This document shows, in pieces, positions 1,442 to 33,829 of a stretch of 34,137 nucleotides of DNA. Below the pieces are notes generated by a model. The model worked only from the letters and a program-made list of their open reading frames with translations, was not told the DNA's origin and searched no databases. This DNA is from a virus: the IMG/VR virus record IMGVR_UViG_3300010883_000189, positions 1-34,137 of that record; one strand, 5' to 3'. Position 1 is the first letter of the stretch. Every line of letters starts with the position of its first letter. The translations under genes were made by a program, and so were the position numbers.

Positions 1442-2308
1442 ATGGAAAATCAAAGCGTTTTAAACAAGTACAAACGCCAACCAAAAATTTACTTGGTACT
1501 GCCTAGTGGTGGTGCATTTTATCCTTCAAATCCAATGGAAAAAACTGGGTCTGGAGAATTACCAATTTATTCAATGACGGCTAAAGACGAGTTAATGATG
1601 AAAACACCTGATGCATTAATGAGTGGTGAAGCAACAGTAGATGTAATCAAATCATGCTGTCCATTAATTGACGACCCGTGGAGCATGCCATCAATCGATT
1701 TAGATGCTATTTTAATTGCTATACGTATTGCTACATATGGCGAAAAAATGGAACTACAAATTCCTATCAGATATTACGAAGAAGGTGATCTTAAAGTAGG
1801 TAGTGAAACTATTGAAATCGATTTACGTACCATATTAGATAAAATGCAAGGCAAAACTTGGAACAGCATTATTACTCACGGTGATCTTAAATTTCATGTT
1901 AAACCTTTATCCTACAAAGAAACAACCAGTTTCTTTATGACTACATTTGAGAACCAAAGATTGTCACAAGTAATGCAAGATACTAAAATTGATGAAGCAC
2001 AAAAATTACAAGCATTCAAAGAAGGATTTAAAAAATTAAGTCAAATGACACTGGATATGGTTATTACAAATGTTACTGAAATTGAAACTCCTGAAGGTAC
2101 AGAAAGCAATATACAAGCCATAAAACAATTTTTTGAAACTACAGACAAAGATACATTTACAGCGGTTCAAAAAGGACTTGAGGATTTGAAAGCATATTGG
2201 AGTACACCAAATACTAGATTTCAAGTACCAGCAGATTATGTGGAGAAGGGCGCCGAGTCAGTTATTGATGTACCGATGGTGTTCGACAATGCAAGTTTTT
2301 TCGCATAA
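1442..2308 (+). CDS. 26: gp26-family baseplate/tail assembly protein
   Basis: The 288-residue product carries the signature of the T4 gp26 family (Pfam 'T4 bacteriophage base plate protein'). It has LPSGGAFYPS near residue 20, then the YSMTAKDELMMKTPDALMSG segment, then a conserved Cys/Asp region (KSCCPLIDDPW) and an LDAILIAIRIATYGE segment. T4 gp26 is about 208 residues, so this one is longer at the C-terminus. GAGGAT lies 7-8 nt before the ATG, and a late promoter lies upstream. T4 gp26 is genetically assigned to the baseplate hub, but a non-structural chaperone role is plausible. The last codons (TTT TTC GCA TAA) contain a slippery heptamer that can redirect ribosomes into the -1 frame, giving a predicted 363-residue extended product ending at 2532. 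The next gene on the left encodes a tape-measure-like protein on the other strand. Confidence 0.8.
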   Translation: MENQSVLNKYKRQPKIYLVLPSGGAFYPSNPMEKTGSGELPIYSMTAKDELMMKTPDALMSGEATVDVIKSCCPLIDDPWSMPSIDLDAILIAIRIATYGEKMELQIPIRYYEEGDLKVGSETIEIDLRTILDKMQGKTWNSIITHGDLKFHVKPLSYKETTSFFMTTFENQRLSQVMQDTKIDEAQKLQAFKEGFKKLSQMTLDMVITNVTEIETPEGTESNIQAIKQFFETTDKDTFTAVQKGLEDLKAYWSTPNTRFQVPADYVEKGAESVIDVPMVFDNASFFA

Positions 2309-2357
2309 AGGTCGGGACACTCGATCTCTCAGAGATTGATGAATTCGTTACCGGCCT
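2296..2357 (+). promoter_or_regulatory. Candidate -1 programmed ribosomal frameshift site (slippery heptamer plus stem)
   Basis: T TTT TTC at 2296-2302 is a canonical X XXY YYZ heptamer in the zero frame (codons TTT, TTC). A 6-nt spacer (GCATAA) follows. Then AGGTCGG (2309-2315) can pair with CCGGCCT (2351-2357) in a 7-bp stem with one U-G wobble. Inside the loop is a second hairpin, CGATCTC/GAGATTG (2322-2328 with 2332-2338). The zero-frame stop TAA (2306-2308) lies 3 nt past the heptamer. The -1 frame opens after a TGA at 2266 and stays open to 2530. Heptamer, spacing and stem match known -1 frameshift signals; use in vivo is inferred. Confidence 0.72.
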
Positions 2358-2532
2358 AGAAAAAGAGTCCACAGCAATATTAAATGAATTAGTTAAGTTA
2401 TGTTGGTACATGCGTGGAGGCATGCAACTAAAAGACGCCTACTATTCAACCTACGACGAAAGAAAAGCCATAGGTAAGATGGTTGATGACAATCTAAAAA
2501 TTACCAAAGAGTCTGGAATGGCTTTTTTCTAA
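2302..2532 (+). CDS. -1 frame extension of the gp26-family gene (GT-like / gp51-position domain)
   Basis: This frame is open from 2269 to the TAA at 2530-2532. It has no ATG, GTG or TTG until an internal ATG at 2410, which is well inside the conserved-looking part. Read from the frameshift junction it gives 76 residues beginning RIKVGTLDLSEIDEFVTGLE. It then contains ILNELVKLCWYMRGGMQL and a YYSTYDERKAIGKMVDDN segment, and ends KESGMAFF. I recall similar 'YMRGG...' C-terminal sequences in small proteins next to gp26 in marine T4-like phages. In T4 itself gene 51, a hub assembly factor, follows gene 26. Whether this domain is homologous to gp51 is not shown by the sequence. The likeliest product is a gp26 fusion, comparable to lambda gpGT. 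It ends 3 nt before the end of a convergent gene. Confidence 0.65.
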   Translation, partial: RIKVGTLDLSEIDEFVTGLEKESTAILNELVKLCWYMRGGMQLKDAYYSTYDERKAIGKMVDDNLKITKESGMAFF

Positions 2533-4671: not shown

Positions 4672-5094
4672 CTAAGTGTTTTGTAAGTGTTCTTTAAGAA
4701 TTTTTGATCCGCCAACTCTAACATTAATAATACCATTGTAGTATTCATCTGTTTCGAGTACTCTGCGTTCAAACTGCTCTCGTGCCTCTAAGTAACTTGC
4801 TATGCCTCTGCTAGGACAGTAATGTAGTATTTCTCTTGTGAACTTGTCTTCGCCTAATGTTTCAACGTCTGCATTAAGTCTATCACTGGAGCCATAGTAT
4901 TCTCTCCAGTCACTTTCTTTAGTTCCACGTCTTTTATTTTTTCTGCCTTTTAGCGGTGGCTTAGTTGTCTTAAACTTTGCTAGTTTCTTGCCTATGTACT
5001 TCATGCCATTGACTTTATTTGTTATCAAGTATACAAATGCTTCAACACCTTCGGGTATTTCTTCAACTGTTTTTCCTTGATAAGTCCACTCCAT
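4672..5094 (-). CDS. GIY-YIG family nuclease-like protein
   Basis: The 140-residue product has the GIY-YIG core near its start: FVYLITNKVNGMKYIGKK at residues 20-37, with Tyr22 and the YIG at 33-35. A basic linker follows (about 42-60), then WREYYGSSDRLN, and a conserved Glu candidate in SYLEAREQFERR. GIY-YIG domains cut DNA in homing endonucleases (T4 Seg proteins, I-TevI) and in repair nucleases. The size fits a stand-alone Seg-like domain with no recognisable DNA-binding tail. AGGTAAG lies about 9 nt before the start. It is the last gene of the minus-strand cluster that contains gp46 and gp47, 18 nt after the 78-residue gene. Homing versus repair or replication use cannot be told from sequence alone. 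Confidence 0.7.
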   Translation of the reverse strand: MEWTYQGKTVEEIPEGVEAFVYLITNKVNGMKYIGKKLAKFKTTKPPLKGRKNKRRGTKESDWREYYGSSDRLNADVETLGEDKFTREILHYCPSRGIASYLEAREQFERRVLETDEYYNGIINVRVGGSKILKEHLQNT

Positions 5095-19300: not shown

Positions 19301-19883
19301 ATTTGAACCTGAATTAAATAAAATGAAATCAATAAGTGATACATTAATATTCCATTCAGTAAAATACAGACCATTATTTGGAACCACTGCTGATACAGAT
19401 CTTCAAGCACAATTTAAAATTGTAAGAGGACCAAACAGCACTATTAGTGATAACCAATTGAAAAGTGGTGTAATTGAAGCAATTAACGCATTCTTTAATG
19501 TAACTAATTGGGACTTTGGTGACACATTTTACTTTTCAGAACTAGCAACATTTGTACACAACAATCTTGCACCTGACCTAGCAAACATGGTCATTGTGCC
19601 AAGAAGTAATGGACAAAGTTTTGGATCGCTATTCCAAATACAAAGTAAAGCAGATGAAATTTTTGTAAGCAGTGCTACTGTTGATAATATAGAACTTATT
19701 GATAGTGTAACAGCAAGTAATTTACAAGCATCAGGTAATGTTGTTAGTAGTGTTGAACAGGTAGGAACAGTTGCAGTTACATCAACAAATACAACAACTA
19801 ATACTAATACTACAAGTACAACAGGTACATCGAGTACAACAGGTACTACCAACACCACTAGTAGCGGAGGTTCTAATTACTAA
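16356..19883 (+). CDS. 6: gp6-type baseplate wedge protein, enlarged
   Basis: The 1,175-residue product opens with the conserved gp6 N-terminus: LLVNQDWSKIYRSFTDADFS, then SSEYLALIDVIAFLGQSLSY and FIETAQKKESVLRLARLVGY. gp6 forms the wedge core ring that drives baseplate opening. T4 gp6 is 660 residues, so this version is nearly twice as long. Extra beta-rich material follows the J-like core in the second half, including a segment with acidic repeats (DSDDDGMIDDPDSFIN). The last 40 residues are almost only Thr, Ser, Asn and Gly. AAGG lies about 11 nt before the ATG, following TTTATAATTT. The stop overlaps the start of the giant gene (TAATG), preceded by GGAGG. Confidence 0.9.
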   Translation: MASYDRQNSLLVNQDWSKIYRSFTDADFSSYDFPTIRRTMINYLRKNYPEDFNDYIESSEYLALIDVIAFLGQSLSYRVDLNARENFIETAQKKESVLRLARLVGYNNKRNQSATGLLKVTGIQTTQNLTDSNGTQLRNRFILWNDDSNVNWLEQINTIMNNSFQGTTVFGKPNASDAVGGIQTDQYKVNTTNSDIPTYKFNKTVAGLQTSFNIVSANLNQGNIVEETPLPGNTLGLLYRNDKRGNSSENTGFFLNFKQGETYTSPFSISDPSNNEVINLNTPNINNDDVWLWELDQFGNYKQQWTKLDSVVGTNAIYNSEAKDNRKIYSVISRDQDKVSLNFADGTFGDLPNGSFRVYYRVSNGLTYTIRPADMQNIIVDIPYTSKSGQRNTLTVQCALQSTVTNASATESVTSIRNNAPQTYYTQNRMITGEDYNTLPLTSNPQVVKSKAVNRASSGISRQYEIKDPTGKYSSTNIMADDGILYKNDYEVDFNFTFSTRNDVLGVLRNTIEPIIAGIGTKSFYYDKFPRIQTSGLNIDWVKSTNTSLGSTGYFRNTVNNAPITVGSFTGNNFRFIATDSMIKFVPPSGRYFLPNGELTTTKTKLTSDYTWVKVANVIGDGSNGGLGALDDGTGPIVITEKVPALAIPSEIVPNIVTDLPSDIETEIVDLVFSNKNFGLRYDQSTLTWKIIANANANTLDTFSLDREGDLSGTKADKSWFILFETDGETYTVSYRGLDYRFESQDLVQFYVDATGKTYDPKTGLVIKDQIKILKVNEDPILSSILTKDYPWEITGAIRNTDGFEDTNRVQVNLYDSDDDGMIDDPDSFINVVSPESTDARGYQDKFVFFQNTVVGNYTVAKKVNASMFVIFDKETSIPSLADYTNGQLFYFYSSTENVIKSYNATRGVLELNNTYFAKPGRSDIKFQYIHNAENDRRLDPSKTNLIDIYMLTESYDNDFRTWLVNGGNRPSAPSSEQLRSQFEPELNKMKSISDTLIFHSVKYRPLFGTTADTDLQAQFKIVRGPNSTISDNQLKSGVIEAINAFFNVTNWDFGDTFYFSELATFVHNNLAPDLANMVIVPRSNGQSFGSLFQIQSKADEIFVSSATVDNIELIDSVTASNLQASGNVVSSVEQVGTVAVTSTNTTTNTNTTSTTGTSSTTGTTNTTSSGGSNY
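19770..19880 (+). repeat. Low-complexity Thr/Ser/Asn-rich coding tail of gp6
   Basis: ACA/ACT/ACC codons alternate with AAT, AGT and GGT in imperfect short repeats (for example two copies of AGTACAACAGGTAC). They encode a tail of the type TSTTGTSSTTGTTNTTSS. Such tracts are usually flexible linkers and are prone to length change. Confidence 0.6.
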
Positions 19884-22800
19884 TGGCATATAGTGACAAC
19901 AACAATGCTCCTGTTAACAGGGACAATAAAGATAAGTTTAGAAATAGTGCTGATTTACTTCCAATGTTTTTTAGAACAGAAGCAAATAAAAAGTTTCTTG
20001 GAGCAACATTTGACACACTTATTAGTAAAGGTCAATTAGAAAAAATTAACGGTTTTGTTGGAAGTAGATATTCTCCAACAGTAAAGCCGGAGGATAGATA
20101 CCTTACTGAACCAACATCTAATCGTAGACGTTATAACCTATTACCTAGTGTTGTAATTAGAGATGATTTTGATGATAGAACAGAATGGTTAGCAACATAT
20201 GATGATTTATTAAATCAGTTAGATTTTTTTAACAGCGAAACAAAAAATCACAACAGTTTATTTTCTAGCAAATACTATGCTTGGAACCCACACATTGACT
20301 TTGATAAAATTTCAAACTATAGACAGTACTATTGGTTGCCACAAGGTCCTAGCCCAGTAACAGTTACAGGACTAGCAGAAGGTAGCATAAGTGCATTTAG
20401 TGTTACTAATGATAGTTCCGGTGCTTATGTGTTTACGCCAGATGGTAGTTCAAAGAACCCTGTAATTAGATTATTTAGAGGTGCAACTTATAAGTTTGAA
20501 GTGAATGCACCAGGACATCCGTTTAATATTAAAATTGCAAAAACTATAGGTAATACAGATTTATACACTGACGGAGTTACAAACAATAGTACTGACAACG
20601 GAACAGTCGTGTTTACCATTCCAAAAGGTGCACCAGACATACTTTATTATGCTTGTGCTAATCATCAATCAATGCAAGGTATTTTTGAAATTAAAGATGC
20701 AGTTGATGAGTTAAACATTGATATTCCTACAGAAGTTTTAGGTAAAACAGAATACACAAGTTCTAGTGGAGTTGTGTTTACTAACGGATTAAAAGTTAAT
20801 TTTACAGGAAATGTATCACCGTCAAAATATAAAAATAAAAATTATTATGTTGAAGGTGTTGGAACAGGAATTACACTTACTCCTGTAACAGAGTTTGATA
20901 CGCCAGAAGGTTATAGTCAAAATTTTGATTATGAGTTTGATGTAGATAGTTTTGATGACACTCCGTATGATGATGGAGAAAGTTCACCACAAACTCCGGA
21001 GTATGTTAGTATTAACAGAGCAAGTATTGATAAGAATCCTTGGTCAAGATATAATAGATGGTTTCACAAAGAAGTTATTGAAGCAACGGCCAAGTACAAC
21101 AATACTAATATTGTATTAGATGAAACTCAACGTGCTAAACGTCCTATCATTGAATTTAGACCTAACATGCAACTTTACAACTTTGCTACGCAAGGGTTAG
21201 GCAACGTTGACGTAATTGACACAGTTACAACAGATGCGTTTAGTGAAGTCGAAGGACAAATAGGTTACTACATTGACCAAGTTGATTTAACAACAGGTAT
21301 GCGTGTTACATTCACAGCAGACCCTGACATTACTGTAGCAGGAAAGATTTATGAAGTTTCTTTTGTAACACATGGTGGAAAGTCAAGATTACGTTTAAAA
21401 GAAGTTGAAAACGGTTTAACTAATACAGGTATTGTTGTTACTAACGGTGTAACTAATAAAGGTACTAGTTGGTACTTTAATGGAACAACATGGGTTAAAG
21501 GACAACAAAAAACTATAATTAACCAAGCACCGATGTTTGAATTATTTGATAATAACGGTGTTAGTTTTACTGATACAAAGTATGGCGTACAAAATTTTGT
21601 TGGTAACAAACTAGTAAGTTATAAACAAGGTACAGGAGCAAATGATCCTGTTTTAGGATTTCCAATTTCATATCAAAATGTTAATAACATTGGTGATATT
21701 TGTTTTAACTTTGATTGGGACGACGATAGTTTTGTATATTCTACAACTGACGGAAATGTTTTACAAGACACAGCCGCCAGTGTTGTTAAAGTAAACAAAA
21801 GTTTAACTGAAGGCACATTTGAATCAGGATGGAGTTTAGTTGATACTAAATCTAGACAAAAAGTTATACAACTTAATGATACAATCTCCGAAACAACATT
21901 AATTGAAGTTACAGCAATTACTAATCCAGGACTATATCTAACAGCAAAAGATATTATTGTTGAGTATGCTGGAACAGTATTAAAACCTAATACAGGATTT
22001 ACTCTAACAAAAAGTGATGACGGTAAAAGATTATATATAATTCCTGTAGAATTTATTCCATCAGAGGAAAGAATTACTATAAAAATTACCACTGATGAAT
22101 TACCTACACAGTTTGGATTTTATGAACCACCTATAAACTTAACTAACAACAGTGAAAATAATGACCTAACTACATTTACTTTAGGTAGTGTAACTGATCA
22201 TGTTAGAACTATTTTTAGTAATAATATTAATGTTACTGGGAAGTTTAACAGCACATCAAATGCTAGAGACATTCCTAACTTATATAAATCAGGAACACGT
22301 TATGTAAAACACCAAGGTAGTTTATTACCTGCAATTTTTGGACTAGTTGACAACGAAACTAATGTAATTAAATCTATAAGAAAAAATGCACTTGATTACA
22401 ATGTATTCAAACAACAATTTTTAAATATGTTTGAAACAATTGAAGTTACAGGTGCTCCAAGAGATGATGTAGACAGCATACTATACAGTATGTCGGTGAA
22501 TCAAAACTCAAACAATTCTTACTTTTACAGTGATATGGCTGGCTACGGTAAATCTTTATCGTCTACAACATACGAAGTTAATACAGCCGGACAACAAATT
22601 TTTGGAATACAAAGTAACTTTAGTTTAACAACTAATTCAAATAGAAGTATATATGTTTATTTAAACGGTGAACATTTAATTAATGATGTTGATTATAACT
22701 TTGATACTGTTGATAACACAGTTAATGTTATTAAGAAAACTGCAATAGGCGATAGTGTAGTGATTTATGATTACAATACTATTGGTAGTATTATTCCTAG

Positions 22801-25800
22801 TACTCCTACAAAATTAGGATTATATCCAAAGTATACACCAGAAATTTATACAGATAAAACTTATATTACTCCTACTAAAATTATTCAAGGGCATGACGGA
22901 AGTAAAACTAAAGCGTTTGACGATTACCGTGATGAGTTATTATTAGAATTAGAAAAAAGAATCTATAACAATATCAAAGTTGAATATAATAGAGATATTT
23001 TTGACAACACTGAATTTAAACCAGGTGCATTTAGAAAAACAGATTTTACATTAGATCAATTTACTAGTGTATTAGATGATGACTTTAATTACTGGTCTAA
23101 CTTATATTCAGTAAACTATTTAAATAATACAACATCAGTGGAAGGCGAAATATTTTCGTACAATCACAACTCAGGGATAGATACAGTTAACGGTGAAATG
23201 TTACCAGGATCGTGGAGAGGAATTTATAAAAAGTTTTTTGACACAGATCGTCCACACACTGCTCCATGGGAAATGATTGGATATTCTGAAAAGCCTAGTT
23301 GGTGGGAAGGCCGTTACGGAGCCGCACCTTACACTTCAGGTAATGATATTCTTTGGAATGACCTAGAAAAAGGTTTTGATTTTAACAAACAAAAAGCAAA
23401 TCCAGTATATGTGAGAACAGGATTAAGTAAAATTATACCTGTAGACGAATACGGGGATTTAAAATCACCTTTACAATCAAATTTAGTAAAGAACTTTATT
23501 ACAACTAATATTGGGCATGATTGGATCTTTGGTGACATGGGTCCATCGGAGTATTCATGGAGATCAAGTAGTTGGTATCCGTATGTTGAACAAATTGCTT
23601 TAGCATTACTGAAACCTGCAAACTATCTTACAGCACAATATGATACTAGTCAAAATAAAGTTTCGCCAAGCGGCAATATTATATACAACAGTACAGGAAA
23701 GATTTTAGATTTTACAGATGTAAAAACACATACATTGTATTATAATAACGTAAGATATTTTGGATCAGGATATCATGTATTTGTAGTTGACTATATGAAA
23801 CAAGCAAATCAAGATGTGCTTACAGGTTATGCTAGTAGACTTACAAAAACAAGTATGAACCTAACATACAAAACAGGTGCATTTGTTAATAAAGATAGAC
23901 TTAGAGTCTTACTTGAAAGTGCTAATCCAAATTCTCCTGATAAAAGTATTTTCCTTCCAGATGAAAATTATGAAATTGCATTTAGAAAGTCTAATCCGGT
24001 TTATACTGCTAGTATATCTGGTGTAGTTGTAGAAAAAGTTGATAAAGGATATATGGTCAGAGGTTATGACAAATATAATCCTGTGTTTAACATTTACCCT
24101 GCAAGACTAGGTCAAAATGATCAAGCAGTTAATATTGGTGGTGTTGAAGCAAACTTTATTATATGGACAGAAGAAAAGTTTTATGGTGCACAACAAATTG
24201 TACAATACGAAGGTTCATATTACAGAGTAAAAGAAGACCATACCGCACAGCAACAATTTGATGGTAGCAAGTATACTAAACTTGTTGAGTTACCAACAAC
24301 AGGCGGAGCGGCGGCTCAAATACCTACATTGTTTGAAGACAGATTAGTTAAAGTACCATACCAAACAGTGTACAGTAACAAGCAAGAAATTTACAACTTT
24401 TTACTAGGATACGGACAGTATCTTGAGAGTATTGGATTTAAGTTTGAATCTCAAATCAACGAACTTGGTGAGAGCAGTGATTTTAAATTTAGTGGAAAAG
24501 AATTTTTATATTGGACTACACAAAATTTTGCAAAAGGAAGTGTTATTACACTAGCACCGTTTGCAAGAGATATTTCTTTTGAATTTTCAACAGGACAAGT
24601 AGATAATGTTTTAGATACATTCTATGAATACTCTATATACAATGCTGGCGGAAACCCAATAAGTAGAAAAAACATAAGCACAGTTAGATCTAGCGGAAGA
24701 TTTACATTAAAGCCAGTAGACACGCAAGAAGGTATTTTTAATGTACAATTAAATCTTATACAAAAAGAACACGTTATTGTGTTTGACGATAAGAGTGTAT
24801 TTGGTGATATAATATATGACCAAGAAGCAGGTTACCGACAAGAACGTATTAAGTTAATTGGATTTAAAACTACAGAGTGGGATGGCGATTTATATTCACC
24901 AGGATTTGTTTATGATGAAGCAAAGATTTCTTCCTGGGCTCAATACAGAGATTATAATCTTGGCGATGTTGTAAAATATAAAACAAAATTTTATACTGCA
25001 AAAAGTTTTATTGCAGGTGCAGAAACTTTCGTTTACAATAGATGGGCTTATTTAAATCAAGCACCAACAGCAGAGTTACTGCCTAACTTAGATTTTAAAA
25101 TTAGCAGTTTCCAAGATTTCTATAACTTAGATACAGAAACATTTGATGAAGCATCAAGTAAGTTATCGCAACATTTGGTAGGATATCAAAAAAGAACATA
25201 CTTAGATAATCTTATACAAGATAATACAGCACAGTATAAGTTTTATCAAGGATATATTAAAGAAAAAGGTACAATAAATGCTATTGATAAAATATCTCGA
25301 TTAAAGATTGATGATGTACAAACAGATATTTCAATTGACGAAGAATGGGCATTTAAAGTTGGTAGTTTAGGAAGTAACTCAACTGTTAAAGAAATTGAAT
25401 TTACCTTAGACGAAAGTTTAAATTTAGAAAATCCACAAGCATATGATTTTGTAAGTTCTATAAATGCAAATACTACGCCAGGAAATAATATACAAATTAC
25501 TGCAAACAATATTGCTGTAAAACCAGTTGACTATGATAACAATCCATGGCCAACTACAACACTTGATACTACAGCAGGAATTACTAGTGATTATCTTAAT
25601 CAACTGCCAGTTGCAGGATATCCTAGATTAGATGATATTCCAACAACCTCAGTAAACTATTCAGATCTAATTGGTAGCAGTGTTATTAACCAACTTGATG
25701 ATAGTGATCTAATTTGGGTAGCAAAGGACAAAGACAAAGATTGGAATGTGTATCAGTTACAAACAATTCCAGCAAGGGTAATTCAAACAGACGACATAAA

Positions 25801-28800
25801 AACTGAATTCTTAGATAACGAAATAACACTAAACACAGATATTCCACACAATTTAGTTGTTACTCAAATTATTAGTATTAAAAGTTTTTCAGAAGGTGTT
25901 GATAATGTTTACCTTGTAAAAAGAATTAACTCACCCACACAGTTTGTAGTTGAAGGAAATGATACTAGTATTACATTAGATGATAGTACATCGGGAGAAA
26001 TTTTAGAATTTATTTCTAACAGAGTTAGTAATCCAGATGATATTAACAATATTAAAAATGTATCAAACATAGAAAATGATTCACTTATGTTTGTAGACAA
26101 TGATGGTACTAACAAATGGGCAGTATATAAAAAGACAAGAGCATTTACAGAAAACAAATGGGGTTCTCCAAACCCTATCACTAAACAAAAGTTTGGTTAC
26201 AATATTGCTTCTGCAAATTTAGGCAGGACTATTGTTGTAGCGGCACCGAAGTTTGGCGATGAAGGTCAAATTTATATTTTAAACAGAGAATTTAATACAG
26301 GAATTCAAACACTACAAGTAACACAAGGGTTTGCTATTTCAGATAACGCAAGTGATAATATTGTTAGTGATGCAGGCTTACCTGCACTTGGAACAAGTTT
26401 AGCATTAAGCAATGACGGAACAGTATTAGTAGCAGGTGCATCAGAAGCAAGTAACTTTAAAGCGGCCGATGATAGTACATATGCTAGTGGATTTAGAGTA
26501 AGCGTTGGTAATATTAATGTTGCTCCTAGTGCTTTAGATAGAGAAGGTGTTGTAACTTTACACACATACGATACTGCTGAAAACTTGTTTAAAAGAAATT
26601 ATGTAATTGGGTGTAGTGAACCAGAAAGTGATTTGCATTTTGGTGCAAGTGTACTAGTATCAAATACAAAGTTGTTAGTTGGTGCTCCAGGTAAAACTAA
26701 CTTCCAAGGTAAAGTTTACATATATGATAAAACTACAAGACCAGACGGTAGTACATTAGATTGGGATTTAAGTGATCACCATATTTTATCAATTCCAAAT
26801 AGTAGAGACGGAGATAAATTTGGTTCATCTATGACTGCTAACAAAGATCTTAGTATTGTTGCTGTATCGGCTCCAGGATATGAAGAAGAAGGAGACGATA
26901 GTACAGCAAACAAAGGTGCAGTATTCATATACAGTTTAGATTCAAGTAACGAATATCAACTAATCCAAACATTGAGTTCAGCAACACTTAACCAAATTGA
27001 TTCAGGTGATAGTTTTGGTTACTCATTGGACATGAGTGATAACGGAACTACACTTATAGTATCAGCACCATACGATGATCAAAATACTATTAACAGCGGA
27101 GCATTATATTACTTTAGTAAAGAAGTAACTGCTGACAGCACACAAGATATGTACACATACCAACAAACTATTTTTAGTCCTCTTAAACAAGTACAAGAAC
27201 AGTTTGGAGCAAAGGTAAGTGTAAATGAAGACGGAACCGGATTTGCTGTGTGGAGTCAACATGGTCAGAATCGATTAACAACAACATTTGATAAATTTAC
27301 ACTACTAGATGATAGTTCACTAGGTAAAACTACAAGAGAAACTACATTTGATAGTCAGAGTTTAAACGTAGTTGATGAAAATTATGCAAGTGGTACAGTA
27401 TACACATATACAAAATTAAACACTAAATTTGTTTATGGACAACAATTAAGTTCAGACACAACACAAGAATTTGATGAGTTTGGTCGAGGTCTTATATACA
27501 CAGGTAATTCATTGTTAGTTGGAGCACCTAATAGTAAGACAGCAGATCTTACTGATGATATTGGTAGTTTGTTTGTATATCAAAAAACTGGATCAAGTGG
27601 TTGGAATAAAATTAGAACACAGGATGATCCTACAGATCCGTATAGTGTTAAAAAATCTTTCACATTTAACACATTAAAAAATGATGTAAAGGACTTTTTA
27701 GAAACTATTGACCCTGTAAAAGGAAAAATTCCATATCTAGCAGAAAAAGAAATTTCATTCAAAGCAAACATTGACCCTGCTTCATATACTACAGGCGACA
27801 CTGGCGTAACAGTTAAACCAACCACAGCATGGACAGAAGAACATGTTGGCCAACTATGGTGGGATTTAAGTACTGTAAGTTATATTTGGTATGAGCAAGG
27901 TGATACAGAATATAGAAAAACAAACTGGGGACAACAATTTCCTGGCAGTTCAATTGATGTGTATGAATGGGTTGAAACAGATCTTTTACCAAGTGAATGG
28001 TTAGAACTTTCGGTCACACAACAAGGACAATCAGCAGGAGTTAGCGGAACACCTAAATACAATGATAACACACTTGTACAGAAAAACATTTATAATTTTA
28101 CTAGTGGCGGATTTGAAACTAGATATTACTATTGGGTTAAAAATACTGTAACAGTTCCTGATGTAAAAAATCGCGATTTACCAGCAATTGAAGTTGCAAA
28201 TATTATTAATGATCCTAAAACATATGGAATCAAAAGTATTCAACTTTTATCTAAAAATGCAATCAGTATTAGCAATGTAAAAACAACACTTGATGACAAA
28301 GATGTTTTTTTAAGTGTGCAATACAGTAATGTAGATACTGATATTCCAGAACACAACGAATGGCAGTTAATTAGTGAAAATCAAGATAAAAAAATTGAAA
28401 ATACTTTATTAGTTAAAAAACTTATTGACAGTGCAGTTGGATATGACAGTGAAGGTAATCCTGTTCCGGATCAAGCACTTCCGGTACAACGAAAATACGG
28501 AATACAAGTTCGTCCTAGACAAAGCATGTTTGTTGATAGACTAGATGCACTTAAATCTATTATCACATTTACAAACGAAGTAATGAGTAATACTAGAGTT
28601 GTTGATACTAAAAATATTACTGCACTATCTGAAAAAGATCCTTTACCTGTATCAGGTAGCGGAAAATGGGATATACAAATCGACGACTATGACGATTTAT
28701 CACAAGTAGGTACAGAAGATTTAACAACAGCAACAGCAACAGCAAATATTGTTAACGGTAGAATAACTTCTGTAAACATAACCAATGCTGGTAAAGGATA

Positions 28801-31800
28801 TAAAAATGCTCCTGCAATTACTATTTCAGGTACAGGCACAGGTGCAAAATTACAATCTGTAATTGATGCTCAAGGTAAAATAACAGCAATCAATGTTAAT
28901 AAAACAGGTAAAGATTACACAGTTGCTAATTTAGATATTAGACCATTTAGAGCATTAGTTAAACTAGACTCAACAGCAAATAATAATTGGACAATATATC
29001 AATGGCAAGCAAGTACTAAACTTTGGTCAAGAACAAATACACAAACATTTGACTTGACACGTTTTTGGAAATATGCAGACTATACACTTGCAGGGTTTGA
29101 TGTTGATTCGATTATTAATTACAAACTAAAAGCAACATACGAGTTAAACACTATTACACCAGTAGTTGGAGAGTTAGTACAAGTTGACAACGCTGGAGAC
29201 GGTAATAAAATTATTCTTAAAAGAGTAGTTAGTAATGGTACTTTTGATGAGTCATATGACTTAATGTATAAAGCAAATAGTACAATACAGTTTAACGAAA
29301 GTGTTTATAATTACGAATTATTAAACTTTGGTTTTGCAGGTCAAGAAAATTATGACGTAAACTTGTTTGACAGTGAGCCAATACAAGAAACACGTAGAGT
29401 TTTAGAAATTATTAGAGATAATATATTTGTAGACGACTTAAAAACTAATTGGAACAAACTATTCTTTATTGCAGTAAGATATGCATTTTCTGAGCAGACA
29501 TTTGTAGACTGGGCATTCAAAACTAGTTTCATAACTGTAGATAATAAACTTGGCGGCTTTAGTAAAAAGTTAAATTACAAATTAAGTGACCCAGGATATA
29601 TTGAACAATATATTAATGAAGTAAAACCTTACAGAACTGTAATTAGAAACTTCTATAACAGTTATAGTCAAGTAGAAAACACACCTGTAAGTAATACAGA
29701 TTTTGATTTACCAAGTTATTGGGACGAGGAAAACAAAGTATTTGTTGCTCCTAAGATTACTGATGATAAAATTACTACTGAACCCTATGTTAATTGGTTT
29801 GACAACTACAAATATAATATTGGTAATGTAAGTGTTACTGATGACGGTCAAGGTTATACTGAAGCACCTGTGGTTATCATTAGTGGCGGTAGATCTAACA
29901 AACCTAAAATTATACAAACTAATCAATATAGACCATTAGTAACTACTGATTACACTGACAGCAGATTTTATATTAAAACAACAAGTATTCCAGATCACGG
30001 ATTTGCTAGAAACCCAGGTACCTTTGCTGTAAAATCGCAAAACTTTACATTTGAGATTTCTAGAACTCCAGTTGAAGCAGATACAAAAGTTAAAACTCCT
30101 ATGGGAGCAATTGGTGTTGCAGTAAATGGTGTTGTATTCCATAATCCAAAAGCAAATCAAACTGAAATGAGAGCAGGGGTTGATTATACAATTAATGCTG
30201 TTCATGCAGGAAAACGTTTAGGCATAGACGACGGATCAGGACATCCGCAAGAAGATGGAATTTATCATTATCATGCAGATCCTAGTTTAATGTATACAAA
30301 AGATGCTACAGCACATAGTCCGTTGTTGGGATATGCACTTGATGGTTATCCAATTTATGGATCTTATGGTTGGAATACTAAATCAGGAAGAAGTAATCCA
30401 AGAATAATGAAATCAAGTTATTCGTTAAAAACAACTATACGTTCAGATGGTAGTAATCATGATGGAACATATGTAGAAGATTACGAATACATTGCAGGAT
30501 TAGGAGACTTAGATGAACACAACGGTAGAACTTGTAACACACCCGAGTATCCAAATGGAACATACGCATACTTTGTAACTGTAGATCCTACAGACACTAC
30601 AGTTCCAGCATATCCATATATTGTTGGTCCTACATATTACGGTGCTCCTTTATTACCTAATGGAAATAAAGTTTTACCAGGAGAAGCATTTGTAGATGCA
30701 ACGGCAGTAGCATACATATCACGTGGTATTGTTAGAGAGATTGTTCTTACTAATCCAGGTAGTGGTTATGTTAGTGCTCCTCTTGTTACACTTGCTGGCG
30801 GCGGTGGTGAAAATGCTGTAACACGTACAGCAAAAGCATATGCAAGATTAGAAAACAAAAAAGTTAGAATAAACGCATTAAGTATGAAGTTTGATAGAGT
30901 TGCTAACAGTCATTTAATTCAAAGCCAAACACAAACAGATACATTTACTGCAACACAAGGACAGATCAAATTTAAATTAACATATATTCCAACGCTTGAC
31001 AAACGTCAAATCAATATTAATATTGCAAATGAAACTGTATATATTGAAAATTATGATGTAAGCATTGTTACTTTAAAAGGTCAAACGTATAAAAAACAAG
31101 AAGGATACATTATCTTTAGTGTTCCTCCGGGAAAAGGTAAATCTGTATCTATAACATATAAGAAGTCAATTGACTTGATGCAGGCAACTGATAGAATTAA
31201 TTACTATTACAATCCAACAGCAGGCATGCGTGGTAAAGATCCATCGCAGTTAATGACTGGTGTTGAATACGATGGTGTTAAAGTACAAGGATTAGAGTTT
31301 GATATTAGCGTAGGCTTTGATGGTCTTCCATGGTTTAGTCATGGTTGGGATACATTCTCAGGAACAAACACTGACTTTGCTTTCCGTGCAGATGGCAGTA
31401 CACAAACATTTACACTACCATACACACCAACAGCAGGTCAGGAGATAAATGTTTACTTTGATAATGTAAGACAAGATCCAACAAACACTCCAACAATTAC
31501 AGGAGACGGAAATACAACTGCATTTACATTAGACATAGGTGCTCCAGATGGTACTCTTGTTGTGTTTAGGCAAAAAGAATCAGATGGTTCGTTAGTTCCA
31601 ACTGATGTTAATAACTTAGATACAATTTTACAAGGTGGTAACTTCCAGTATTCAACAGCAACAGGACAGAATCCTGAGGACATTGATATTGACGGTGATG
31701 GGTTTGTAACAGTTGATACATCACATGCACCAGAAGAAGTTGTTCCAGGGCAAACATTTGATAGTTTAAGTATTAGTGTTTACAATTCACCAGCAGATGG

Positions 31801-33829
31801 TTCTCCGTTAATTGTTACAAACAGATATATTGGTAACAGTTTACTTAGAAGATATAGTTTTGATTTATATCCGGGAACAAATGATAGTTTATTTGTAACA
31901 GTTGATGGTGTATATCTAAAACAAACTACAGATTATACTATTGATTACGAAAATAAAGAAATTGTTTTTGTTGATTCTCCAGACGTTGGAGAAGTTGTAG
32001 CAATACAAACTCTTAATGTTGGTGGTGCAAATATTTTAGAAAGAAAAACGTTTACAGGTGACGGAAGTACAACAGAATTTGAACTTACAGCCAAGTATGG
32101 TGATGTAGGAAGTGTTTTTGCAACAGTTAACGGTGTAAGTAAAACATATGTATTGCGTGAATCAACAACAGGTAGTGCAATAGTTGATATTACTAACCCA
32201 CCAAGTGTGTCTAATACGGTAATTCAAATTACTGCTTTAAGTTCAACTGAAAAAACATACAGTGAAATTATAAAAGAATCAATTATTGATGACGGAAGTT
32301 CTATGGCATACACAATGTCAAACATTCCAGGCAACATTGCTCCTTATCATAACATGGTAATTGCAGAAGTAAAAGATATCAGCAGTGGTGTTGTAACTAG
32401 ATTACTTCCACCAGACACTGTTTACTATGTAAGTAACGGAGTAACACAAAATTATACAGTAAGTCAAAACCCAGAGTATCCTGTGTTTAGTTTAGCACTA
32501 GGAGAAATTGAAGTTTATCTAAACGGAAACAAACTAGTACCCATTAGAGACTTTAACTTTGATACACAAACTAACCTTGTAACATTTAACCAGAATGTTT
32601 TAACTTCCGGCGATGTGATTGCAATTACTATCCTTAAAAATCACGAGTATGAAATTAATGTTACTGGTGATAGTGCAGGAGATACTGAATCAAACTTGGT
32701 AATATTAAAAAGTAGATCAGATTTACCAACAAATGCAGAGTTCCATGTAACAACATTTACTAATCATGATTCAAACTTAATTAGAAAAGAAGTGTTTAAT
32801 GGTAACCTAGGAGGAACTTATAGATTAAGTCGTCCTGCGATCGATTCAAACTATGTATGGGTTGAAATTGATGGTACACCATTAGTTGCAGAACGTGATT
32901 ATAAGATTTTAGATAACAAGGTAACTGTTGAAATTGATAATAAATTTACTATATTAACAACATCAAAAGTTACAATAACAACATTTAGTGAAGAATTAAG
33001 TTACGACTCTGTTGGATACAAAGTGTTCAACGATATGTTAAACAGGACACACTTCAAACGTATTAGTGATAACGATAGTACTACACTAGCCGTAGATTTA
33101 TTGTTTAATGATAAAGAAATTACATTAACTGATGCAAGTTTCTTAGATACTCCGTCGATAGCAGATAAAACACCTGGTGTTGTATGGATTGATAGAGAAA
33201 GAATTGAATTTTATAAAATTACTGGTAACAAACTAGGACAAATTACAAGAGGTACATTAGGTACAGGTATTAAAGATAACCATAAATCGGGTAGTTTAGT
33301 TTTTGATGCAGGCCCAGAGCAAACAGTTCCGTACAAAGAGAATATTAATGTATACGAAAGTGTTATAAGTCCAAATTTACCAAATGGTAGAAAAGAACAT
33401 GTACTAGAAACTGTGAGTATAACAAGTAGTGTAAATGCACACGATCAAATTGAAGTATATTTGAGTGGTAAAAGACTACAAAAACCAACAGTAAGTACAA
33501 ATCCTATCAAAGTTCATAATGCAGAAATTGCATATGATAGTAATGAAACTAACAGTGCAGGTACATCGAGTGATGTAACGCAAATAGCAGAGTTTACTGT
33601 AGAACCAGTAGCAGACTCAACAGGAAAAAGTTATTATAAGTTAATATTAAGGGATGAGCCTCAAGATGGTGCTCAACTAAAAGTAACACAGAAGCAAGGG
33701 CGTGTATGGTACGAACAAGGCGTTAATTCAGCGTCTACAGGCACCACACTACAAAGAGCAGAAACTGCTCAAGCCAGGTTCTTACTAGAAAGAACCAGTG
33801 GCTTGCCTGTAATAAATATTAGGGAATAA
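19883..33829 (+). CDS. Giant baseplate-wedge-associated structural protein (4,648 residues)
   Basis: One uninterrupted ORF directly after gp6 and before gp8, the position of T4 gene 7 (1,032 residues). The N-terminus (NSADLLPMFFRTEANKKFLG, EPTSNRRRYNLLPSVVIRDD, YYAWNPHIDFDKISNYRQYY) matches my recollection of giant structural proteins of marine T4-like phages. Visible parts in order: cupredoxin-like domain (about 190-272); Trp/Tyr-rich region (about 1,090-1,260); seven FG-GAP-like blades (2,104-2,575); GYxxAP-type repeats near 2,966, 3,316 and 3,622; YHYH domain (YHYH at 3,461-3,464); and many 'VxVNG..L....DY....' beta repeats toward the C-terminus. It probably forms the peripheral wedge and carries receptor- or glycan-contacting domains. 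GGAGG lies 11 nt upstream. Its length makes it 41% of the window. Confidence 0.85.
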   Translation: MAYSDNNNAPVNRDNKDKFRNSADLLPMFFRTEANKKFLGATFDTLISKGQLEKINGFVGSRYSPTVKPEDRYLTEPTSNRRRYNLLPSVVIRDDFDDRTEWLATYDDLLNQLDFFNSETKNHNSLFSSKYYAWNPHIDFDKISNYRQYYWLPQGPSPVTVTGLAEGSISAFSVTNDSSGAYVFTPDGSSKNPVIRLFRGATYKFEVNAPGHPFNIKIAKTIGNTDLYTDGVTNNSTDNGTVVFTIPKGAPDILYYACANHQSMQGIFEIKDAVDELNIDIPTEVLGKTEYTSSSGVVFTNGLKVNFTGNVSPSKYKNKNYYVEGVGTGITLTPVTEFDTPEGYSQNFDYEFDVDSFDDTPYDDGESSPQTPEYVSINRASIDKNPWSRYNRWFHKEVIEATAKYNNTNIVLDETQRAKRPIIEFRPNMQLYNFATQGLGNVDVIDTVTTDAFSEVEGQIGYYIDQVDLTTGMRVTFTADPDITVAGKIYEVSFVTHGGKSRLRLKEVENGLTNTGIVVTNGVTNKGTSWYFNGTTWVKGQQKTIINQAPMFELFDNNGVSFTDTKYGVQNFVGNKLVSYKQGTGANDPVLGFPISYQNVNNIGDICFNFDWDDDSFVYSTTDGNVLQDTAASVVKVNKSLTEGTFESGWSLVDTKSRQKVIQLNDTISETTLIEVTAITNPGLYLTAKDIIVEYAGTVLKPNTGFTLTKSDDGKRLYIIPVEFIPSEERITIKITTDELPTQFGFYEPPINLTNNSENNDLTTFTLGSVTDHVRTIFSNNINVTGKFNSTSNARDIPNLYKSGTRYVKHQGSLLPAIFGLVDNETNVIKSIRKNALDYNVFKQQFLNMFETIEVTGAPRDDVDSILYSMSVNQNSNNSYFYSDMAGYGKSLSSTTYEVNTAGQQIFGIQSNFSLTTNSNRSIYVYLNGEHLINDVDYNFDTVDNTVNVIKKTAIGDSVVIYDYNTIGSIIPSTPTKLGLYPKYTPEIYTDKTYITPTKIIQGHDGSKTKAFDDYRDELLLELEKRIYNNIKVEYNRDIFDNTEFKPGAFRKTDFTLDQFTSVLDDDFNYWSNLYSVNYLNNTTSVEGEIFSYNHNSGIDTVNGEMLPGSWRGIYKKFFDTDRPHTAPWEMIGYSEKPSWWEGRYGAAPYTSGNDILWNDLEKGFDFNKQKANPVYVRTGLSKIIPVDEYGDLKSPLQSNLVKNFITTNIGHDWIFGDMGPSEYSWRSSSWYPYVEQIALALLKPANYLTAQYDTSQNKVSPSGNIIYNSTGKILDFTDVKTHTLYYNNVRYFGSGYHVFVVDYMKQANQDVLTGYASRLTKTSMNLTYKTGAFVNKDRLRVLLESANPNSPDKSIFLPDENYEIAFRKSNPVYTASISGVVVEKVDKGYMVRGYDKYNPVFNIYPARLGQNDQAVNIGGVEANFIIWTEEKFYGAQQIVQYEGSYYRVKEDHTAQQQFDGSKYTKLVELPTTGGAAAQIPTLFEDRLVKVPYQTVYSNKQEIYNFLLGYGQYLESIGFKFESQINELGESSDFKFSGKEFLYWTTQNFAKGSVITLAPFARDISFEFSTGQVDNVLDTFYEYSIYNAGGNPISRKNISTVRSSGRFTLKPVDTQEGIFNVQLNLIQKEHVIVFDDKSVFGDIIYDQEAGYRQERIKLIGFKTTEWDGDLYSPGFVYDEAKISSWAQYRDYNLGDVVKYKTKFYTAKSFIAGAETFVYNRWAYLNQAPTAELLPNLDFKISSFQDFYNLDTETFDEASSKLSQHLVGYQKRTYLDNLIQDNTAQYKFYQGYIKEKGTINAIDKISRLKIDDVQTDISIDEEWAFKVGSLGSNSTVKEIEFTLDESLNLENPQAYDFVSSINANTTPGNNIQITANNIAVKPVDYDNNPWPTTTLDTTAGITSDYLNQLPVAGYPRLDDIPTTSVNYSDLIGSSVINQLDDSDLIWVAKDKDKDWNVYQLQTIPARVIQTDDIKTEFLDNEITLNTDIPHNLVVTQIISIKSFSEGVDNVYLVKRINSPTQFVVEGNDTSITLDDSTSGEILEFISNRVSNPDDINNIKNVSNIENDSLMFVDNDGTNKWAVYKKTRAFTENKWGSPNPITKQKFGYNIASANLGRTIVVAAPKFGDEGQIYILNREFNTGIQTLQVTQGFAISDNASDNIVSDAGLPALGTSLALSNDGTVLVAGASEASNFKAADDSTYASGFRVSVGNINVAPSALDREGVVTLHTYDTAENLFKRNYVIGCSEPESDLHFGASVLVSNTKLLVGAPGKTNFQGKVYIYDKTTRPDGSTLDWDLSDHHILSIPNSRDGDKFGSSMTANKDLSIVAVSAPGYEEEGDDSTANKGAVFIYSLDSSNEYQLIQTLSSATLNQIDSGDSFGYSLDMSDNGTTLIVSAPYDDQNTINSGALYYFSKEVTADSTQDMYTYQQTIFSPLKQVQEQFGAKVSVNEDGTGFAVWSQHGQNRLTTTFDKFTLLDDSSLGKTTRETTFDSQSLNVVDENYASGTVYTYTKLNTKFVYGQQLSSDTTQEFDEFGRGLIYTGNSLLVGAPNSKTADLTDDIGSLFVYQKTGSSGWNKIRTQDDPTDPYSVKKSFTFNTLKNDVKDFLETIDPVKGKIPYLAEKEISFKANIDPASYTTGDTGVTVKPTTAWTEEHVGQLWWDLSTVSYIWYEQGDTEYRKTNWGQQFPGSSIDVYEWVETDLLPSEWLELSVTQQGQSAGVSGTPKYNDNTLVQKNIYNFTSGGFETRYYYWVKNTVTVPDVKNRDLPAIEVANIINDPKTYGIKSIQLLSKNAISISNVKTTLDDKDVFLSVQYSNVDTDIPEHNEWQLISENQDKKIENTLLVKKLIDSAVGYDSEGNPVPDQALPVQRKYGIQVRPRQSMFVDRLDALKSIITFTNEVMSNTRVVDTKNITALSEKDPLPVSGSGKWDIQIDDYDDLSQVGTEDLTTATATANIVNGRITSVNITNAGKGYKNAPAITISGTGTGAKLQSVIDAQGKITAINVNKTGKDYTVANLDIRPFRALVKLDSTANNNWTIYQWQASTKLWSRTNTQTFDLTRFWKYADYTLAGFDVDSIINYKLKATYELNTITPVVGELVQVDNAGDGNKIILKRVVSNGTFDESYDLMYKANSTIQFNESVYNYELLNFGFAGQENYDVNLFDSEPIQETRRVLEIIRDNIFVDDLKTNWNKLFFIAVRYAFSEQTFVDWAFKTSFITVDNKLGGFSKKLNYKLSDPGYIEQYINEVKPYRTVIRNFYNSYSQVENTPVSNTDFDLPSYWDEENKVFVAPKITDDKITTEPYVNWFDNYKYNIGNVSVTDDGQGYTEAPVVIISGGRSNKPKIIQTNQYRPLVTTDYTDSRFYIKTTSIPDHGFARNPGTFAVKSQNFTFEISRTPVEADTKVKTPMGAIGVAVNGVVFHNPKANQTEMRAGVDYTINAVHAGKRLGIDDGSGHPQEDGIYHYHADPSLMYTKDATAHSPLLGYALDGYPIYGSYGWNTKSGRSNPRIMKSSYSLKTTIRSDGSNHDGTYVEDYEYIAGLGDLDEHNGRTCNTPEYPNGTYAYFVTVDPTDTTVPAYPYIVGPTYYGAPLLPNGNKVLPGEAFVDATAVAYISRGIVREIVLTNPGSGYVSAPLVTLAGGGGENAVTRTAKAYARLENKKVRINALSMKFDRVANSHLIQSQTQTDTFTATQGQIKFKLTYIPTLDKRQININIANETVYIENYDVSIVTLKGQTYKKQEGYIIFSVPPGKGKSVSITYKKSIDLMQATDRINYYYNPTAGMRGKDPSQLMTGVEYDGVKVQGLEFDISVGFDGLPWFSHGWDTFSGTNTDFAFRADGSTQTFTLPYTPTAGQEINVYFDNVRQDPTNTPTITGDGNTTAFTLDIGAPDGTLVVFRQKESDGSLVPTDVNNLDTILQGGNFQYSTATGQNPEDIDIDGDGFVTVDTSHAPEEVVPGQTFDSLSISVYNSPADGSPLIVTNRYIGNSLLRRYSFDLYPGTNDSLFVTVDGVYLKQTTDYTIDYENKEIVFVDSPDVGEVVAIQTLNVGGANILERKTFTGDGSTTEFELTAKYGDVGSVFATVNGVSKTYVLRESTTGSAIVDITNPPSVSNTVIQITALSSTEKTYSEIIKESIIDDGSSMAYTMSNIPGNIAPYHNMVIAEVKDISSGVVTRLLPPDTVYYVSNGVTQNYTVSQNPEYPVFSLALGEIEVYLNGNKLVPIRDFNFDTQTNLVTFNQNVLTSGDVIAITILKNHEYEINVTGDSAGDTESNLVILKSRSDLPTNAEFHVTTFTNHDSNLIRKEVFNGNLGGTYRLSRPAIDSNYVWVEIDGTPLVAERDYKILDNKVTVEIDNKFTILTTSKVTITTFSEELSYDSVGYKVFNDMLNRTHFKRISDNDSTTLAVDLLFNDKEITLTDASFLDTPSIADKTPGVVWIDRERIEFYKITGNKLGQITRGTLGTGIKDNHKSGSLVFDAGPEQTVPYKENINVYESVISPNLPNGRKEHVLETVSITSSVNAHDQIEVYLSGKRLQKPTVSTNPIKVHNAEIAYDSNETNSAGTSSDVTQIAEFTVEPVADSTGKSYYKLILRDEPQDGAQLKVTQKQGRVWYEQGVNSASTGTTLQRAETAQARFLLERTSGLPVINIRE
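20450..20698 (+). other. Cupredoxin-like domain inside the giant protein
   Basis: Residues about 190-272 read as a plastocyanin-type beta-sandwich. They run from IRLFRGATYKFEVNAPGHPF through TVVFTIPKGAPDILYYACAN to HQSMQGIFEI. The four type-1 copper ligands are all present in the expected order: His212, Cys258, His261 and Met264 (C-x2-H-x2-M, the amicyanin spacing). Copper binding is inferred from this pattern. Confidence 0.7.
26192..27607 (+). other. Seven-bladed FG-GAP-like beta-propeller inside the giant protein
   Basis: Residues about 2,104-2,575 contain seven repeats of the type 'FG..(V/L)....D...L.VGAP......G.VY.Y'. They begin at FGYNIASANLG, LGTSLALSNDG, FGASVLVSNTK, FGSSMTANKD, FGYSLDMSDNG, FGAKVSVNEDG and FGRGLIYTGNS. 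This is the integrin-alpha-type propeller pattern, commonly a protein- or glycan-binding platform. Confidence 0.75.
30060..30600 (+). other. YHYH domain inside the giant protein
   Basis: The segment includes TKVKTPMGAIGVAVNGVVFH, then GHPQEDGIYHYHADPSLMYT with YHYH at residues 3,461-3,464, and SPLLGYALDGYPIYGSYGW. This is the recognised YHYH domain pattern. Its biochemical function is not established. The clustered His residues suggest metal binding. Confidence 0.75.
33811..33818 (+). promoter_or_regulatory. Possible late promoter (AATAAATA) before gp8
   Basis: One mismatch from TATAAATA, inside the last codons of the giant gene and 15 nt before the gp8 ATG. The longer 10-mer AATAAATATT is identical to that before the first baseplate gene (9109-9118). 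The short distance to the ATG is a weakness, because the start site would fall within a few bases of it. Confidence 0.3.

Follow-up and report, generated by a model that had tools for sequence, protein, structure and literature searches.

A predicted −1 frameshift in a gp26/gp51-family tail assembly chaperone gene of an IMG/VR virus fragment

Does the gp26-family gene of the virus record IMGVR_UViG_3300010883_000189 end at its own stop codon, or is it also decoded beyond that stop, into the open reading frame (ORF) that overlaps its 3′ end? The window, that is, the whole stretch of DNA analyzed here, comprises the 34,137 bases of this IMG/VR virus fragment, and the gene is present once in the record. 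From sequence comparison, we consider it very probable that this is a gp26/gp51-family tail assembly chaperone (TAC) gene that is decoded in two ways through a predicted −1 frameshift. The 288-amino-acid zero-frame protein matched PF12322 (T4_baseplate) with 30.9 bits against a cut-off of 24.5 (expectation value, E, 2.8e-7), and phrog_150 (baseplate hub) with an E of 4.9e-11. Its AlphaFold2 model had a predicted local distance difference test score (pLDDT) of 88.9, and the top fold matches of this model among predicted viral proteins were T4-like baseplate hub assembly proteins (E 2e-18).

The zero frame of the gene ends with AGT TTT TTC GCA TAA, which gives a protein tail of NASFFA before the stop. 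The slippery heptamer T TTT TTC lies in frame, 3 nucleotides before this stop, and falls inside the 40-nucleotide overlap of the zero frame and the −1 ORF. The earliest ATG, GTG, or TTG in the −1 frame of the window was found at 2410, which is codon 48 of 87, indicating that the −1 ORF has no usable start. After a slip, the extension would comprise 76 residues beginning with CGC at 2302-2304, so that fusion with 287 zero-frame residues would give a product of 363 amino acids. The extension carries the motif WYMRGG and a gp51-like C-terminus, and its model was all-helical with a pLDDT of 90. Pfam and PHROGs searches with the extension of the window returned no credible family. A preliminary description of this DNA had proposed a −1 frameshift at this place, and the in-frame heptamer, the start-less ORF, and the predicted product lengths of 288 and 363 residues all agreed with it.

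The same description had suggested aligning the junction across marine T4-like phages, and this comparison bore out both the heptamer and the −1 frame. In a first scan, every homologue with the junction present had the heptamer, and its −1 frame was open. The gp26-type loci were collected by motifs from the body of gp26, with the junction unused, which gave 84 distinct contigs reaching down to 34% protein identity with the window. TTTTTTC was present in 84/84 of these contigs and in all 78 distinct cyanophage-type contigs; the loci are related, and these counts are therefore not independent events. The chance of finding xxT TTT TTC at an F-F codon pair was ~6% per locus according to local codon use. 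In the gp26-type contigs, the base directly 3′ of the heptamer was G in every case (84/84), so that the −1 frame reads Arg (CGN) there; the remainder of that zero-frame codon was variable, and the zero-frame stop followed 1-4 codons past the heptamer. The −1 extension had 77-82 residues in every untruncated gp26-type locus, with the WYMR motif in most. Substitutions in the −1 ORF numbered 588, 338, and 954 at codon positions 1, 2, and 3, respectively, indicating the pattern of a protein-coding frame. A scan with the extension alone further revealed at least 589 stretches that encode relatives.

Among the giant phages, TTTTTTC was found in 12 of 14 (Phosso, Atu_ph07, BF, PA5oct, CBB, Munch, GAP32, Vibrio 2.275, 121Q, Hallingskeid, XbC2, and SCTP-2), a T7 run was found in the other two, and the −1 ORF was open in all. 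The two phages with the T7 run are RAS14 and XacN1 (L032 2740-2801, L033 2750-2813), in which the zero-frame stop lies more than 10 codons downstream. The heptamer was also present in the cyanophages S-CAM8, DSL-LC02, and S-RIM8, and in Vibrio phage Bakedbeans. The 121Q-type frameshift extension forms a PHROG of its own, phrog_18291 (function unknown), whose annotated start lies past the junction (L029 2822-3031).

Next, the RNA downstream of the heptamer was analyzed. The predicted fold of the window contained the outer 7-bp stem named in the preliminary description, and the second hairpin enclosed by it was also recovered, with 8 bp; the fold with both stems had −18.4 kcal/mol and a z-score (z) of −2.27 compared to dinucleotide shuffles. 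Stability across the 84 loci was tested with synonymous-codon shuffles that preserve the −1 protein. The 72 nucleotides 3′ of the heptamer were more stable than their shuffles (mean z −2.02). Other gp26 stretches, as well as the extension beyond the stem region, gave z of about −0.6 to 0, and a stretch beginning 60 nucleotides upstream of the heptamer gave z −0.33 with shuffles of matched length. A perfect stem of at least 8 bp that starts between +4 and +9 was observed in 50/84 loci, compared to a mean of 8.7 and a maximum of 14 in 50 shuffles, and a stricter stem score gave 39 loci compared to 1.7 in shuffles. Excess structure was also observed in the cyanophage-type contigs (mean z −1.4).

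The 5′ arm of the stem mostly started at +5 or +6 after the heptamer, and the 3′ arm mostly ended near +36, +54/55, +66/67, or +73-76. Atu_ph07 and Phosso had 10-bp stems that belong to the longest of these classes. Covariation scores in three registers exceeded every slid control (0.384, 0.312, and 0.181 compared to 0.217, 0.129, and 0.093, respectively), and several pairs in these registers had changed on both sides; the pair counts are illustrative, as the loci were mostly picked for having a stem, and the unselected test is the 50/84 count. For the marine and giant-phage branch of the T4 superfamily, we lean toward a putative stimulatory hairpin that would drive the chaperone frameshift, whose 5′ arm is fixed 5-6 nucleotides past the heptamer and whose 3′ arm has shifted between registers (~36, 54, 67, and 75 nucleotides) with compensatory changes, such that the element would be held by function and not by one set of partners. 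A conserved hairpin after the slip site in T4-like chaperone genes has apparently been undescribed so far.

All four elements of the junction (heptamer, −1 frame, lack of a start codon, and 3′ stem) were conserved, and these results strongly support the −1 programmed frameshift that joins the gp26-family gene to the start-less extension. In the proposed mechanism, most ribosomes would terminate at the zero-frame stop and produce the short form of 288 amino acids. Some ribosomes, delayed at T TTT TTC by the stem-loop 6 nucleotides downstream, would slip back by one base. Both Phe-tRNAs, on the P- and A-site codons, would then re-pair on UUU UUU (TTT TTT in the DNA), and reading would go on in the −1 frame to the end of the ORF. 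The resulting long form of 363 amino acids would finish with a helical domain that is homologous to the C-terminal end of T4 gp51. We infer that slippage occurs at a useful rate and that the stem stimulates it.

PF12322 includes both T4 gp26 and T4 gp51, indicating that they are paralogues. In hhalign comparisons, for which the E-values are pairwise and uncalibrated to any database, the cyanophage frameshift product aligned to T4 gp51 over 236 columns including the C-terminus (Prob 99, E 8e-18), the cyanophage extension alone aligned to the C-terminal end of gp51 (E 1.6e-10), and the window/giant-phage fusion aligned to gp51 with Prob 94. T4 gp26 ends with EFFELL, at the same place as the end of the short product. 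These alignments and the matching end of gp26 indicate that the short form is gp26-like and the long form is gp51-like. Homology between the extension and the C-terminus of T4 gp51, which the preliminary description had proposed by position, is thus supported by sequence alignment, and clearly so via the cyanophages. The end of T4 gene 26 itself was checked and contained neither the heptamer nor a −1 ORF. The two-gene state was observed in Straboviridae, where genes 26 and 51 are divergent in T4, phiAS4, Aeromonas phage 31, Proteus phiP4-3, and Acinetobacter PhT2, and lie in tandem in RB43.

Several observations weigh against the frameshift reading or parts of it. The extension of the window clade alone aligned weakly to the end of gp51, with Prob 76 (86 when cyanophages were added). 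Approximately 40% of the 84 loci had no obvious 8-bp stem, and giant phages besides Atu_ph07 and Phosso showed little excess structure (mean z −0.6), indicating that a strong stem is not universal. In S-SCSM1 (L038, MK867354.2, 2660-2874), the heptamer is present, but the −1 frame is closed after 10 codons, and the gp51-like ORF is open in the +1 frame; this may reflect either an error in sequencing or true loss of frameshifting. Pseudomonas phage Cygsa01 (L041, PP179332.1, 2250-2482) has no heptamer, and its second ORF starts at its own ATG in a TAATG overlap, which adds a third arrangement to the frameshift and the pair of paralogous genes. Furthermore, neither the model of the 288-amino-acid protein nor that of the extension convincingly matched the fold of a solved tail assembly chaperone (e.g., HK97 gp13), and a search of solved structures by sequence found no relative; both results are uninformative either way.

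Lambda gpG/gpGT suggests roles for the two products: the short form would cover the tape measure, and the long form would bring in subunits of the tube or hub; neither would stay in the virion. Alternatively, the frameshift may be real while its products act as baseplate-hub assembly factors and not as G/GT chaperones of the tape measure and tube, which we consider unlikely. This alternative is favored by a 2010 review in which the hub assembly chaperones include T4 gp26 and gp51 (PMC3004832), and by the absence of the fold match mentioned above. However, G/GT pairs have the same short/long arrangement, and Vladimirov et al. 2022, as represented in papers that cite it, assigned the T4-like genes as tail assembly chaperones. 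Moreover, the two roles may coincide because the T4 tape measure gp29 belongs to the hub. The preliminary description had recast gp26 as a chaperone in place of a hub part; a chaperone role for gp26 is not new, given the same review and, through its citing papers, Vladimirov et al. 2022.

The remaining alternatives to a −1 frameshift concern how, or whether, the extension is joined to gp26. It is very improbable that the extension is a gene in its own right, with translation by reinitiation or coupling once gp26 has ended. Annotations of several giant phages and cyanophages do list the extension as a hypothetical protein of its own, and the TAATG overlap of Cygsa01 would suit such a gene. However, the first possible start in the −1 ORF of the window lies within the conserved domain, and a start with a Shine-Dalgarno-like motif by the 30th codon past the heptamer was found in only 8/84 loci. 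A separate gene would also need neither TTTTTTC in 162/162 contigs nor a constrained next base. Transcriptional slippage on the T6 run, which would give the same protein as ribosomal slippage, likewise has very little probability. A homopolymer run is indeed present, but six T is a short run for slippage by a bacterial polymerase. In addition, the run is phased for tandem tRNA slippage, and in nearly all loci it is T6C and no longer run; the conserved stem at +5/+6 is as ribosomal frameshifting predicts. The chance of an assembly or sequencing error, or of a decayed gene, is negligible: a one-base deletion would look alike in a single contig, but the same frame relation was found in 162 distinct contigs and many isolate genomes, and conservation over so many independent assemblies rules out the single-base assembly error that the preliminary description had raised.

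The features of the locus are collected in Table 1. The divergent neighbour of the gp26-family gene is conserved beside gp26 in L002, L003, L047, L051, L014, and phage BF, and had no match in Pfam, PHROGs, or phage records. It is plausible that the chaperone gene adjoins the tape-measure gene, for which this neighbour is the candidate.

Table 1. Positions of the predicted frameshift locus and its neighbour in the window.
Feature	Position	Strand	Basis
Zero-frame gene, 288 amino acids, gp26/gp51 family; short form (TAC-N / lambda gpG-like)	1442-2308	+	PF12322, phrog_150
−1 ORF without start codon; long form (TAC-NC / gpGT-like)	2269-2532	+	ORF reading, conservation
Slippery heptamer T TTT TTC	2296-2302	+	Sequence; conservation in contigs
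Zero-frame stop TAA, one codon (GCA) past the heptamer	2306-2308	+	Sequence
Outer stem, 5′ arm AGGUCGG, 6 nucleotides past the heptamer	2309-2315	+	Predicted fold, conservation
Inner 8-bp hairpin within the outer stem (UCGAUCUC, 2321-2328 / GAGAUUGA, 2332-2339)	2321-2339	+	Minimum-energy and centroid structures
Outer stem, 3′ arm CCGGCCU	2351-2357	+	Predicted fold, conservation
Divergent neighbour, incomplete at the window edge; candidate for the tape measure or another virion protein	2-1360	−	Inferred from conserved position

Two other genes of the window were also noted. On the minus strand, 4672-5094 encodes a GIY-YIG endonuclease of SegE type (PF19835, E 1.2e-34), whose best PHROGs family is named "NAD synthetase". 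On the plus strand, 19883-33829 is a single ORF of 4648 codons, which covers 40% of the window and probably encodes a large virion protein.

The frameshift reading offers an explanation for a published oddity, namely that gp51 is "reduced" in cyanophages and marine vibriophages; this short gp51 would be the frameshift-encoded end of gp26. One annotation rule could mend hundreds of marine and giant phage genomes in which this end is missing or appears as a mis-started "hypothetical protein". The results also support the view that phages of the T4 superfamily widely use frameshifting to obtain the short/long chaperone pair, T4 itself having two genes, and the loci provide natural hairpins with which the evolution of frameshift stimulators could be tested.

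A frameshifted chaperone pair is already known as a kind, T4-like phages included. The E/E+E′ pair of P2 is of this kind, like lambda gpG/gpGT. According to Atkins et al. 2016 (PMC5009743), G-T frameshifting is widely conserved, T4 excepted. For T4-like phages, tail assembly chaperones in a short and a long form were reported by Vladimirov, Gautam & Davidson 2022 (Virology 566:9-15), as cited by the PRFect (PMC10885494) and Adele (PMC12846349) papers; the latter cites that work for polyT slip sites in T4-like phages, and the former states that some T4-like phages have a separate short gene and a fused long gene. According to these citing papers, the system concerns the same protein family, and its short/long pair agrees with the gp26/gp51 relation observed here. 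In contrast, the conserved stem in alternative registers receives no mention in the passages of those papers that cite the work. Certain tailed-phage frameshifts seem to have no stimulatory signal (PMC5009743), whereas a conserved stem follows the slip site in the chaperone gene of the window, which is of the T4 gp26/gp51 family. Sullivan et al. 2010 reported that cyanophage and marine vibriophage gp51 is missing its first ~200 residues (PMC3037559). That short "gp51" corresponds to the −1 extension in position and in its homology to the same end of gp51; it was read there as a reduced gene, whereas here it would be the frameshift-encoded end of gp26. T4 gp51 shares with the long form both the family domain and the C-terminal part homologous to the extension, but T4 has two divergent paralogous genes for the short and long proteins, whereas the window would make both from one frameshifted gene.
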